Shown: piece after piece, positions 21,592-56,925 of the stretch
How the letters are laid out: each line of letters starts with the position of its first letter
Numbering within the stretch: the first letter of the stretch is position 1
Origin: Caballeronia sordidicola
GTDB taxonomy: Bacteria; Pseudomonadota; Gammaproteobacteria; Burkholderiales; Burkholderiaceae
Direction of reading: 5' to 3'
NCBI RefSeq assembly: GCF_002220365.1
Contig: NZ_MTHB01000110.1
Location: forward strand, 248,001 to 312,000
Length of the DNA stretch: 64,000 nucleotides
Position numbers and translations under genes: made by a program
The notes under the pieces: generated by a model
What the model saw: the letters and a program-made list of their open reading frames with translations, nothing else
What the model was told of the DNA's origin: nothing
Database searches by the model: none

Positions 21592-21840
21592 ATGAGCTGG
21601 GGCGACGAAAACACGACCTACAACGTTGTGATGAACCACGAGGAACAGTATTCAATTTGGCCGGACTACAAGGCGCTCCCCGCAGGATGGACTGCTGTGG
21701 GCAAGACCGGCAAGAAGGACGAATGCCTCGCGTATATCGACGCAGTGTGGACCGATATGCGCCCGCTCAGCCTGCGTCAGGCGATGGCAGCCGATGCAGC
21801 AGCGAATGCGGCGGCCGATGCTAGCGCCAAAGCGGGCTGA
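21592..21840 (+). CDS. MbtH-like protein
   Basis: This 82-residue protein carries the full MbtH signature: [19 protein letters not shown] followed by [23 protein letters not shown]. MbtH proteins bind and activate or stabilise adenylation domains. It leads the main operon and is expected to serve one or more of the six adenylation domains in this locus. The Ala-rich tail (about 15 residues) is beyond the core and variable in the family. Confidence 0.95.
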
Positions 21841-21852
21841 GACAGGTCGCGG

Positions 21853-53945: not shown

Positions 53946-54898
53946 ACCGACGCGCCATGCTTTCCGCGCTGCTGGGCGCCGGCGCACTTGCCGCAACCGC
54001 ACTGTCCGATGTTGCACTTGCTGGTGAGGGTTCCGCCGCTACGCCGCGCCGTATTGTCGTGCTCGACTGGGGACTGACGGAGATGGTGTTGTCGATTGGC
54101 GTGGTGCCGGTCGGGATCGCGAATACCCGGGACTTTCGCCGAAATTTTACGGCATGCGATGTGCCCGCGTCGGTGGTCGATCTCGGCCTGATGTTCCAGC
54201 CCAACATGGAATTGCTGTTCGCGTTAAAGCCTGACCTGATCGTCATCTCGCCGGCTCATGCGAGACTTCGGACCGCGCTCGAGCAGGTTGCGCCTACCGT
54301 CACGCTCGGGCGTTACCGTTCGAGTGAAGCACCTTATTGCGCGGCACGTGCCGAAACGCTGCAGCTCGCGCGTTTGCTGGGATGTGAAGCGCGTGCCGAA
54401 GCACTGCTCATGCAAGCGGACACGGCGCTCGACCACGCGCGCACGGCGCTTGCCGCGCTGCCAGGTGTAAGTAGTGTGGGCGGCGCAGGTGGTGCAGGTA
54501 GTGAAAAGGGCAGGCCGCTTTACATGGTGAATTTTATCGATGAAGCGCACGTGCGCGTGTTCGGTCCGAACAGCTTCTACGGCGAACTGATGGCCACGCT
54601 CGGACTACGAAACGCGGTCCACTCGGGCGCCTACTCCACCACCGGTTTCGACGTGTTGGGCAGCGTGCCGGACGCGGCCCTGCTCTACATGAAGCCGCTT
54701 GCGTCCTCCGTTGCGAACATGATGAAAACCAGTCCCTTGTGGCACGCCATGCCGTTCACTAACGAGGGCCGCATGGTGGGCCTGCCGCGTGTTCCGCCCG
54801 ACGGATGCGTCCTATCCGCGATGCTCTTCGCCCGCGTGCTTGTCGATGCCTTCGAGCAGACCGGCGAGCAGACCACTGCCGCGAAGGAGCACGCATGA
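53942..54898 (+). CDS. ferric-siderophore periplasmic binding protein
   Basis: This 318-residue class III binding protein is of the FhuD/FecB family. Its start, MNRRAMLSALLGAGALAATALS, resembles a Tat or Sec signal peptide; the RR is followed by AML rather than the full Tat motif. Mature-domain features include IVVLDWGLTEMVLSIGVVPVG and MELLFALKPDLIVIS. It would carry the ferric siderophore to the fused permease encoded next, with which it overlaps by 4 bp. It has no lipobox cysteine at the N terminus. Confidence 0.88.
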   Translation: MNRRAMLSALLGAGALAATALSDVALAGEGSAATPRRIVVLDWGLTEMVLSIGVVPVGIANTRDFRRNFTACDVPASVVDLGLMFQPNMELLFALKPDLIVISPAHARLRTALEQVAPTVTLGRYRSSEAPYCAARAETLQLARLLGCEARAEALLMQADTALDHARTALAALPGVSSVGGAGGAGSEKGRPLYMVNFIDEAHVRVFGPNSFYGELMATLGLRNAVHSGAYSTTGFDVLGSVPDAALLYMKPLASSVANMMKTSPLWHAMPFTNEGRMVGLPRVPPDGCVLSAMLFARVLVDAFEQTGEQTTAAKEHA

Positions 54899-56925
54899 AA
54901 AGCGTCGCGACCGTCCCCGGGGCGCCCGCACGAGGCTGGCCACTCCTTCCGGTTTGTCTTGTGATCGTGCTGGCCGCGCTGTTGTCGCTGCACAGGCTGG
55001 AGGAGCGCTTGCCGGCGTCATTGTGGTGGCAAGCGTTGACGGCTCCTTCGCCCACGGATCTGCGGCAGCTGCTTGTCCACTACGGCGACCTGCCGCGCAT
55101 CGCGGTTGCGTGGTTGTGTGGCGCGGCGCTCGGGATTGCGGGCGTGGCCACCCAGCAGGTGCTGCGCAACCCCCTTGCCGAACCGATGACGCTCGGGATC
55201 TTCTCCGGCTCCTATCTTGCGCTCTCGATAACGACTGTCTACGCCCCCGGCTTGCTGATATCGGGCCGCGACGGGGTTGCGCTGGCCGGTGGCGCAGTGG
55301 CATTGACGATTGTTTTCGCGTTGGCTGCGCGACGCGGCATCTCGCCGCTCGCGCTGATCCTCGGCGGCATGATCGTCAACCTGTGCTGCGGCGCGCTGAG
55401 TTTCGCGCTCGCGATCTCCCACTATGACTTGTTGAGCGCCCTGATGATCTGGGGCGGCGGTTCGCTGGGCCAGCACGACTGGAGCGTCGCGCTGGCGCTG
55501 CTCGTGCGACTCGTGCCATGCGTGGCGTTGCTGCTGCTGTGCACGCGGCCCATGGCCGTATTCGATCTGGGTGACACCGTCGCCAGCAGCCTGGGTGTGT
55601 CGTTGCGTATGACTCGCGGCGCGGCGCTCTTCCTGACCTTGCTCGTGACCGCGTTCGTGGTGAGCGCAGTGGGTGTGATCGGCTTCATTGGACTCGCTGC
55701 ACCGACGCTTGCGCGACTTGCTGGCGCGCGCCGTTTGCGCGACCGGATGTTGTGGTCGCCGTTATTTGGCGCAGCGCTGCTGTGGCTGGCGGATCAGATC
55801 GCGCGGGAATTCGCGGGGCGGTACGGAACCACGATTCCGGCCGGCGCGATCACCACGTTGCTGGGCGCACCGCTGCTGCTGGTCATGTTGCGGCGCTTGC
55901 GTGGACGGCCCGACCTGAACCATGCGCCCGCGATCCATTCAGAGGCGCTGTCATCGCGCGCGCTGGTTTTCACGACGGGCGTCTGCGTACTGCTCTTGCT
56001 GGTGGTCATCGGCTTGTCGCTTGGTGTGGGGCGAGGTCTGGAAGGCTGGCATGTCAGCCGCCCGGACGAGATCGCTGCGTTGCTGTTCCTGCGCTTGCCA
56101 CACGTAGTCGCGGCAATGGGCGTAGGCGTGCTGCTCGCGCTCGCGGGCGGTATTGTCCAGCGCATGACCGGCAATCCGATGGCGAGTCCCGACCTGCTCG
56201 GCATCACGGCCGGCGGCTCGATGGGACTCACCGGGGCACTTTTCCTCACGGCCAGTCCTGGGCTGCCGACGTTTCTTGTCTGGTGCGCGTGCGGATCTGT
56301 GATTACGCTGGGCGCGCTGCTGCTCTTTGCACGCAAATCTTCTTATGCACCCGACACGCTGATACTCGCCGGCGTGACAATCAGCGCCGTCTTCCAGGCA
56401 GTGTCGACGATTGCCGTCGCCAGCGACGATCCCCGCGTGATCGTTCTCTACAACCTGCTCGCAGGGTCGACATATAACGTCAGCGCGGATGCAGCAGGTT
56501 TCGTGGCCGTGGTTGCGCTGGCGGCGCTTGGCGCGGTGCCGTTTTGCCGGCGCTGGCTTGAAATCTTGCCGTTGGGCGGGGCCGTGTCGCGAGGCTTGGG
56601 AGTAAACGTTGCCGTCGCGCGTTTTGCGCTGCTGCTGTTGAGCGCGCTGCTGACGGCGGTGGCGACACTGGTGATCGGCCCGCTGTCATTTATCGGCCTC
56701 ATGGCGCCGCACATGACACGCATGCTCGGTATCCGGCGGGCTGTGCCGCTGCTGTTCATTTCGGCGGCCCTGGGCGCGGCGCTGATGGTCGCGTCCGACT
56801 GGCTCGGCCGCTGGGTCCTGTTCCCGCAGGAAATGCCGGCGGGCGTGATGGCGACACTGCTGGGCGGCGTGTACCTGATTATCACGATGTTCAAACGCAA
56901 CCCGCGTGATGCGTCCGGTTCATAA
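54895..56925 (+). CDS. fused FhuB-type siderophore permease
   Basis: About 676 residues. Two FecCD permease halves are fused as in FhuB: residues about 1-330 (with RIAVAWLCGAALGIAGVATQQVLRNPLAEP) and 345-675 (LPHVVAAMGVGVLLALAGGIVQRMTGNPMASPDLLG). Each half ends with the coupling-helix motif (GFIGLAAPTLARLAG; SFIGLMAPHMTRMLG). About 20 membrane segments are expected. No ATPase gene follows; the next gene is unrelated and on the opposite strand. The permease must use an ATPase encoded elsewhere, or one is missing. The ATG at 54895 overlaps the binding-protein stop; upstream in-frame starts are inside that gene. Confidence 0.88.
   Translation: MKSVATVPGAPARGWPLLPVCLVIVLAALLSLHRLEERLPASLWWQALTAPSPTDLRQLLVHYGDLPRIAVAWLCGAALGIAGVATQQVLRNPLAEPMTLGIFSGSYLALSITTVYAPGLLISGRDGVALAGGAVALTIVFALAARRGISPLALILGGMIVNLCCGALSFALAISHYDLLSALMIWGGGSLGQHDWSVALALLVRLVPCVALLLLCTRPMAVFDLGDTVASSLGVSLRMTRGAALFLTLLVTAFVVSAVGVIGFIGLAAPTLARLAGARRLRDRMLWSPLFGAALLWLADQIAREFAGRYGTTIPAGAITTLLGAPLLLVMLRRLRGRPDLNHAPAIHSEALSSRALVFTTGVCVLLLLVVIGLSLGVGRGLEGWHVSRPDEIAALLFLRLPHVVAAMGVGVLLALAGGIVQRMTGNPMASPDLLGITAGGSMGLTGALFLTASPGLPTFLVWCACGSVITLGALLLFARKSSYAPDTLILAGVTISAVFQAVSTIAVASDDPRVIVLYNLLAGSTYNVSADAAGFVAVVALAALGAVPFCRRWLEILPLGGAVSRGLGVNVAVARFALLLLSALLTAVATLVIGPLSFIGLMAPHMTRMLGIRRAVPLLFISAALGAALMVASDWLGRWVLFPQEMPAGVMATLLGGVYLIITMFKRNPRDASGS

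Follow-up and report, generated by a model that had tools for sequence, protein, structure and literature searches.

A stretch of 64,000 nucleotides of the genome of the soil bacterium Caballeronia sordidicola (assembly GCF_002220365.1, contig NZ_MTHB01000110.1, positions 248,001 to 312,000), referred to below as the window, carries a real, intact and apparently uncharacterised gene cluster for a siderophore containing graminine (Gra). The cluster spans window positions 20872-56925, all of its genes lie on the + strand and its main reading frames are all open. It is almost certainly of the gramibactin type, i.e. it would direct nonribosomal synthesis of a C-diazeniumdiolate lipopeptide siderophore. 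It departs from the known members of this class in two respects: no epimerisation (E) domain follows graminine, and the hydroxylation module lacks both an adenylation (A) domain and an interface domain.

The features are listed below in gene order (ACP, acyl carrier protein; C, condensation domain; FAAL, fatty acyl-AMP ligase; NRPS, nonribosomal peptide synthetase; T, carrier domain; TE, thioesterase; values such as 3.2e-14 are E-values).

20872..21501, + strand: 4'-phosphopantetheinyl transferase (Pfam ACPS, 3.2e-14)
21564..21579, + strand: Fur-like site upstream of mbtH (shared 16-base motif)
21592..21840, + strand: MbtH-like protein (PF03621, 1.7e-23; the genome's sole PF03621 match)
21853..22719, + strand: type II thioesterase (Pfam Thioesterase, 3.7e-35)
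22716..24152, + strand: GrbD-like, SznF-related cupin protein, predicted to form the N-N bond (SznF, 1.9e-32)
24386..35704, + strand: NRPS1, 3772 amino acids, predicted terminal synthetase, GrbE-C-A(Gra)-T-C-A(Gly)-T-C-A(Gra)-T-TE
24599..25222, + strand: GrbE-like YqcI/YcgG putative arginine-hydroxylase domain within NRPS1 (8.5e-65; AglA, 1.8e-34)
35701..42381, + strand: NRPS2, 2226 amino acids, predicted starter synthetase, FAAL-ACP-C1-A(Asp)-T-C2 (PF00501 twice)
40993..42333, + strand: C2, extra C-terminal condensation domain of NRPS2 (intact HHIVADGA motif)
42392..43405, + strand: stand-alone Fe(II)/2-oxoglutarate putative Asp beta-hydroxylase (TauD, 9.6e-47; IbetaH side of the trees)
43402..43707, + strand: lone carrier protein without an A domain (PP-binding, 1.3e-21)
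43817..43832, + strand: Fur-like site upstream of the receptor gene (shared 16-base motif)
43871..46132, + strand: TonB-dependent siderophore receptor (TIGR01783, 1.2e-112)
46155..53945, + strand: NRPS3, 2596 amino acids, predicted middle synthetase, C3-A(Ser)-T-E-C4-A(Arg-like)-T
53942..54898, + strand: FhuD-like periplasmic binding protein (family matches)
54892..56925, + strand: FhuB-like double (fused) permease (family matches)

The class is indicated by GrbD with its cupin histidines, a fused GrbE, Gra codes, and receptor and uptake genes. The GrbD-like protein matches SznF over residues 27-455 of 478, and its H401, H403 and H442 align with the cupin histidines of SznF and are invariant in all six aligned sequences. 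Most di-iron ligands of the central domain of SznF are missing from GrbD (ligands were matched by eye on the alignment), in line with the published view that the similarity of GrbD to SznF is confined to the cupin domain (PMC9679993). The GrbE-like domain (residues 72-279 of NRPS1) also matches AglA, which has been counted among the arginine hydroxylases (PMC9679993). In Paraburkholderia graminis both GrbD and GrbE are required for graminine (PMC6771848), and arginine is its source (PMC9679993).

A-domain codes were read at nine positions, i.e. up to but excluding position 10. Those of NRPS1 are, in order, DVHRTGLIA, DILQLGMIW and DVHRTGLVA; the last is identical to the published Gra code DVHRTGLVAK (PMC10391617) at these nine positions, whereas the first departs from it at a single residue. 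In NRPS2 the Asp A domain reads DLTKVGHVG, and the two of NRPS3 read DVWHISLID (Ser) and DAEDIGAIT (Arg-like). Literature searches with the exact codes turned up only an Orn code of another domain and a bacitracin Lys code. Since a FAAL starts the chain and a TE ends it, the synthetases most probably act in the order NRPS2, NRPS3, NRPS1, which gives Asp, Ser, Arg-like, Gra, Gly, Gra instead of the Asp-Thr-Thr-Gra-Gly-Gra of gramibactin. It speaks against this order that NRPS1 is the first NRPS gene in the operon, so that the arrangement leans on FAAL being first and TE last. The Gra-Gly-Gra end itself is well supported by codes and domain order, and we regard it as highly probable.

Much of this had been anticipated in a first-pass annotation made from the nucleotide sequence. 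It had named the class, the GrbD-like cupin protein, the GrbE-like domain, the FAAL loading and Asp modules (both in NRPS2), a beta-hydroxylase (the TauD-type gene), the TonB receptor and the siderophore uptake genes, all of which were recovered here, and had placed the start at 21592, exactly where the MbtH gene begins. Its Gra-Gly-Gra end stands, and the composition that it gave for gramibactin, with two Thr, Gra, Gly and Gra, is the published one (PMC9679993).

As far as our searches of condensation-family and A domains show, the cluster is the sole NRPS line of the assembly (9.75 Mb in 307 contigs; listed completeness 100, contamination 9.49). The condensation family (PF00668) gave eight matches in the whole genome (seven C domains and one E domain), every one in the cluster, and the Asp A domain of NRPS2 found six domains in the cluster and three weak matches elsewhere (27-31% identity). 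GrbD homologues occur at 65 loci of the genome collection, 47 of which were taken into the hydroxylase-match step (a related step covered 50 genomes, and longer stretches were read for part of them). GrbD is 94-96% identical in Caballeronia sp. dw_19, C. sordidicola S170, Burkholderia sp. S171 and the Caballeronia metagenome-assembled genome (MAG) RYN_561. P. tropica LMG 22274 and the Paraburkholderia MAG Chal bin7 (GrbD 73% and 81% identical, respectively) have the same gene and domain order as the window, including C2, the hydroxylase and the lone carrier, and likewise no E domain after Gra. The layout is complete in six genomes (the window, dw_19, S171, S170, Chal bin7 and P. tropica); in RYN_561, a fragmented assembly that divides it among contigs, it is partly visible, and a single small contig there carries the C2 motif, the hydroxylase and the lone carrier. 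A beta-hydroxylase query against 58 Caballeronia genomes, that of the window included, gave five matches at E-value <= 1e-100. A search of the plasmid collection gave three records, Tistrella among them, all below 60% identity.

The hydroxylase is encoded by a separate frame in all six complete clusters, i.e. it is not fused to an NRPS C-terminus, although by sequence it belongs to the fused (IbetaH_Asp) type. Trees of 21 and then 30 hydroxylases split into two sides with 100/100 support. In the larger tree one side holds 14 sequences, including all five fused IbetaH enzymes and the window hydroxylase, and the other 16, all stand-alone, including Tistrella MobD and a P. graminis gene. SyrP is a stand-alone enzyme. 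MobD has been described as TbetaHAsp (PMC10391617), and the syringomycin-family clade reportedly sits within IBH_Asp (PMC12971057), which makes a stand-alone enzyme of the IbetaH type less surprising. L-threo hydroxy-Asp has been associated with the fused type and L-erythro with the stand-alone type, one introduction sentence of the same source stating the reverse (PMC7100376).

One part of the cluster went unmentioned in the first-pass annotation. NRPS2 ends in an extra C domain, C2, which is followed by the stand-alone hydroxylase and then by the lone carrier (43402-43707), so that this carrier has a C domain but no A domain. Altogether, the cluster holds seven C domains for eight carriers, which suggests a heptapeptide, and we lean towards the view that the lone carrier bears one extra residue, probably Asp. 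The His motif of C2 is kept in all six clusters read and in RYN_561, as is the GGDSL motif of the lone carrier (one of the six copies reads GGDSLM). By simple pairwise estimates, the ratio of nonsynonymous to synonymous substitutions (dN/dS) against dw_19, S171 and S170 is 0.05-0.08 for the lone carrier and 0.12-0.16 for C2, and against Chal bin7 and P. tropica 0.15-0.22 for both; judged by these values, the two are under purifying selection.

Outside its own clade, C2 best matches C domains located directly before an IbetaH-type hydroxylase. In a FastTree phylogeny of 274 C-like domains (2 of 276, shorter than 280 residues, were dropped beforehand) it falls into a group of 12 (support 0.958), all directly upstream of this hydroxylase type and five of them fused to it. 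The reading of C2 as an interface domain was rejected in view of its intact HHxxxDG-type motif and of this grouping. The relatives P. ferrariae, Pandoraea capi, Chitinasiproducens and Bordetella sp. share the order of C domain, IbetaH and Asp carrier-bearing protein; they differ in that IbetaH is fused to the C domain and the next protein keeps a C-like domain without His motif, A(Asp) and a carrier. In Burkholderia sp. Ac-20379 a protein of the same kind comes after a hydroxylase that stands alone. The five C-like domains concerned, classed as interface-like by position and by the lack of a His motif, come together in the tree (support 0.995), and none of the eight C-like domains of the cluster groups with them. 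For the Nitrospirillum protein behind IbetaH, whose C-like part is split into two hits, an interface type was not established. Most of the domains grouped with C3 of NRPS3 (support 0.809) are C domains which, in relatives, come after the interface-A(Asp)-T protein; a Nitrospirillum domain encoded by a different gene also falls among them.

The gene position, together with C2 and the hydroxylase, suggests that an interface-like domain and an A domain were lost beside an Asp A domain that is still available. We tentatively propose, with somewhat more doubt than confidence, that the lone carrier is the remnant of an interface-A(Asp)-carrier protein, that the one Asp A domain charges two carriers (in cis and in trans), that the IbetaH-family enzyme acts on Asp bound to a free carrier, no interface domain being involved, and that the product is a heptapeptide with Asp-(OH)Asp. 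Charging of an A-less module by the A domain of another module has been shown for CmnI of capreomycin (PMC12400406), an unrelated antibiotic pathway; here it is inferred. The two best outside-clade matches of the lone carrier, in Nitrospirillum (59% over 54 residues) and Ac-20379 (50% over 62), are carriers of C-like-A(Asp)-T proteins behind IbetaH. The Asp A domain of NRPS2 scores 337-426 bits outside the clade (one partial match 259) against Asp A domains that have no interface-like domain beside them, and lower, 265-325 bits, against those in proteins behind IbetaH.

Several observations weigh against the remnant proposal. With 57 and 56 bits, the top two matches of the lone carrier are separated by a slim margin from the next one (52), and among 185 carriers those of P. 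ferrariae, Chitinasiproducens, Pandoraea and Bordetella come 17th, 31st, 32nd and 109th. Its ancestry is therefore weakly supported by its own sequence. The three other adenylate-forming genes of the genome (27-31% identity) may also load the lone carrier, and the carrier could be idle.

Idleness is part of the best-placed alternative, essentially the hexapeptide of the first-pass annotation, in which the hydroxylase acts on Asp bound to the NRPS2 carrier, and C2 and the lone carrier are non-functional or form a docking platform. The presence of a single Asp A domain in the cluster agrees with such a chain, as do the position of the syringomycin-family hydroxylases inside IBH_Asp, the weak ancestry of the carrier, and the composition of gramibactin, the megapolibactins and plantaribactin, which as described hold hydroxy-Asp and no second Asp. 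However, the retained C2 and carrier motifs (in the same seven clusters), their low dN/dS values, a C domain count that fits eight carriers, and the grouping of C3 are not what it predicts, and we consider the hexapeptide unlikely.

Two further clusters contain modules that bear on this arrangement. In the GrbD cluster of Pollutimonas bauzanensis (L129-L130, G159:C22:58263-98262), a stand-alone IbetaH-type hydroxylase precedes an A(Asp)-T protein that lacks an interface-like domain; this may be a halfway form linking interface-A-T with the lone carrier. In Pandoraea capi (L131, G160:C6:108424-128423), another A-less module, carrier-C-carrier-C, lies between the Thr and Gra modules of a 9469-residue NRPS frame that also bears a fused hydroxylase.

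The second departure concerns the configuration of graminine. Neither graminine module of the window has an E domain, in contrast to gramibactin; one Gra precedes a C domain (28601-29935) and the other the TE. We surveyed 46 Gra A domains in 26 clusters, within the stretches analysed, an E domain being assigned by context (a C-like domain with C, TE or the end of the frame behind it); 42 of them were judged, and the remaining 4 could not be. An E domain follows in 24/42 cases, with GGDSI carriers throughout. In ten cases a C domain follows without E, always with a GGHSL carrier and with PH for HH in the His motif (confirmed separately in Chal bin7), and in eight cases a TE follows without E (six GGHSL and two GGDSL carriers). 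The PH motif, present in all ten C domains after E-less graminine, is a possible sequence mark of L-graminine donors.

By our own anchors, the carrier-to-C spacing after the first Gra of the window is 63. Published spacings are about 60-70 for C domains of the LCL subtype and 92-105 for dual condensation/epimerisation (C/E) domains, and GGHSL carriers have been tied to C subtypes without a preceding E domain (PMC10212144). The missing E domain, a spacing near that of LCL and far from that of dual domains, and the GGHSL carrier point to L-Gra at both positions. We consider this quite likely for the pair, and with slightly more assurance for the C-terminal residue.

Were the graminines D-configured, the PH-motif domain would be a dual C/E domain, and the TE would epimerise or tolerate a C-terminal D-residue. 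D-Gra has indeed been reported for the four graminine siderophores with readable configuration, i.e. gramibactin, megapolibactin C, plantaribactin and tistrellabactin (PMC6771848, PMC9679993, PMC10391617), and the invariable PH motif gives the domain a specialised look. Three further points count against the L assignment: tistrellabactin contains D-Gln without an E domain, an exception to the E-domain rule inside the class (PMC10391617); LCL and dual domains were distinguished without reference dual C/E sequences; and the survey counts are not independent, many of the compared clusters being closely related. The spacing of 63 and the GGHSL carrier are nevertheless LCL-like, so that the dual C/E function was held less likely, and behind the last Gra there is no C or E domain; D-graminines thus appear improbable. 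L-graminine itself is not new, as it is the free precursor and has also been proposed, from GrbD/GrbE homologues, in chalkophomycin, which differs in being a copper-binding product of NRPS and polyketide synthase and not a lipopeptide siderophore (PMC11085572).

For the last residue of NRPS3, the code DAEDIGAIT fits the tendency for Arg (taken from PMC12283262) at 9/9 positions, better than the Lys/Orn-like residue annotated previously, and Arg is reasonably favoured. Similar codes are known for Lys (DAESIGSV; PMC3207962) and OH-Orn (DAEDTGRISK; PMC10391617), which tells against Arg. P. tropica and Chal bin7 read DIEFIGAIA at the same domain, probably for another residue; this position therefore varies within the clade.

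From the domains, codes and relationships described above we infer all of the chemistry of the following scheme, which as a whole, minor errors allowed, we put forward with a little more confidence than doubt. Judged by their families, GrbE would hydroxylate arginine and GrbD would join two of its nitrogens to give L-graminine. The FAAL would begin the chain with a fatty acid, NRPS2 would add Asp, and C2 would join acyl-Asp to a second Asp on the lone carrier. The latter, having neither an interface nor an A domain of its own, would be charged in trans by the NRPS2 Asp A domain, and its Asp would be hydroxylated by the stand-alone IbetaH-type enzyme. NRPS3 would then add D-Ser and, most likely, Arg, and NRPS1 L-Gra, Gly and L-Gra, before the TE releases the product, either linear or closed on Ser. 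The resulting heptapeptide, acyl-Asp-(3-OH)Asp-D-Ser-Arg-L-Gra-Gly-L-Gra, would bind Fe(III) via two diazeniumdiolates and one beta-hydroxycarboxylate. With 3-hydroxydecanoyl as an example of the acyl chain, whose identity is not part of the prediction, the calculated [M+H]+ is 1053.481 for the linear heptapeptide and 938.454 for the linear hexapeptide, a difference of 115.027 Da, and cyclic forms would be lighter by 18.011; for gramibactin B the residue masses used reproduce the published 853.3898 (PMC6771848). Compared with the chain of the first-pass annotation, the class and Gra-Gly-Gra are retained, and the basic residue, the number of residues (C2 and the lone carrier pointing to one more, probably Asp) and the graminine configuration were probably wrong there.

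The gramibactin (grb) cluster of P. graminis (locus L028, genome G130) shares with that of the window GrbD (75% identity in the best segment), GrbE, the FAAL, the Asp A domain, the Gra-Gly-Gra order, the TonB receptor, the binding protein and a FecCD permease. It differs in having Thr-Thr in place of Ser-Arg-like, an E domain behind its first Gra (in this draft assembly the second is interrupted by a frame break), a separate GrbE protein and another gene order; in P. phenoliruptrix, E domains follow both Gra. No hydroxylase of the window's family was found in the 40 kb read around the gramibactin locus; the best P. graminis match (45%) lies on a contig other than that of grbD and on the TbetaH side of the tree. 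In the drafts of P. graminis C4D1M (L111-L112) and P. dilworthii (L109-L110) the NRPS genes break across frames, possibly owing to sequencing errors, so that the gramibactin reference reading is partly indirect. The megapolibactins contain Ser/Thr with Ala or Ser, and the tistrellabactins Gln and OH-Orn (PMC10391617). Plantaribactin and gladiobactin (Burkholderia plantarii, B. glumae, B. gladioli), compared by description and not by gene clusters, share the lipopeptide nature, hydroxy-Asp, D-Ser, a basic residue and Gra (PMC6771848). Unlike the predicted product, plantaribactin has two Ser, Orn and Gln, gladiobactin has Lys for Gln, and both are described with a lactam via Orn, L-erythro hydroxy-Asp and D-Gra.

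That the product has already been published under some name is very improbable. The class is the same and several congeners are known, and the P. tropica LMG 22274 cluster has been called gramibactin-like (PMC13184526). Nevertheless, none of the characterised products compared by description has this residue sequence (gramibactin, megapolibactins, plantaribactin, gladiobactin and tistrellabactins all differ), and trinickiabactin has been equated with linear gramibactin (PMC7898861). In the open-access literature searched, subscription journals lying mostly outside it, no graminine siderophore product of Caballeronia was found among the entries listed, nor any product for P. tropica LMG 22274 or Chal bin7.

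The operon is probably iron-regulated. The Fur boxes of the first-pass annotation did not appear in classical form: the 19-bp consensus gave no match at <=3 mismatches, and the core palindrome none at <=1 mismatch. A shared 16-base Fur-like motif does precede mbtH (21564) and the receptor gene (43817). At <=2 mismatches it gave three matches (two overlapping) against 0.19 expected, and none of 100 shuffles reached three, for a pattern picked after the sites had been seen. Both sites are present in S171, dw_19 and S170 (0-2 mismatches), and the mbtH site in RYN_561 (1 mismatch); Chal bin7 and P. tropica have one weak match each at such places (2 and 3 mismatches, respectively). Matches at 2-3 mismatches also fall inside genes, and a longer pattern, run on the whole genome, fits the receptor site alone, so that a regulon across the genome was not demonstrated. 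On the evidence of these motifs, the cluster is likely to be under Fur control.

That the cluster is silent, decayed or not making a siderophore is hardly probable at all: a scan of the operon proteins revealed neither an FhuC-type ATPase nor an exporter, but the main frames are open, C2 and the lone carrier are under purifying selection, the Fur-like sites recur in close relatives, and a receptor and an importer are present. The ATPase and exporter functions may be shared with another system.

Adjoining a nitroreductase gene (20138-20734) upstream of the cluster is a 288-residue frame (19268-20134, - strand) without a Pfam match, the middle of which, by the impression from its translation, resembles a degraded phosphopantetheinyl transferase. 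Distant GrbD/SznF relatives (23-30% identity) were found at ten loci (L074-L083) in Accumulibacter, Propionivibrio, cyanobacteria and others, with a GrbE-like domain beside them in only three (L074, L077 and L083) in the DNA examined; they possibly represent unexplored N-N bond chemistry.

Graminine siderophores release nitric oxide, and gramibactin is a source of iron for plants (PMC6771848). Few of these siderophores have been characterised, and from the cluster a further one can be predicted exactly enough to be checked. Three questions of NRPS logic could also be examined in this natural system: whether the A-less module of a siderophore line can be charged by its upstream neighbour, whether hydroxylases of the IbetaH type depend on an interface domain, and whether iron binding is affected by the stereochemistry of graminine. 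If trans charging takes place and the PH-type C domain is specialised for L-Gra, the cluster would encode an L-graminine siderophore and, at the same time, show an NRPS module in the course of breaking down, in a series leading from interface-A-T (Pandoraea and others) through A-T (Pollutimonas) to T alone (the window).

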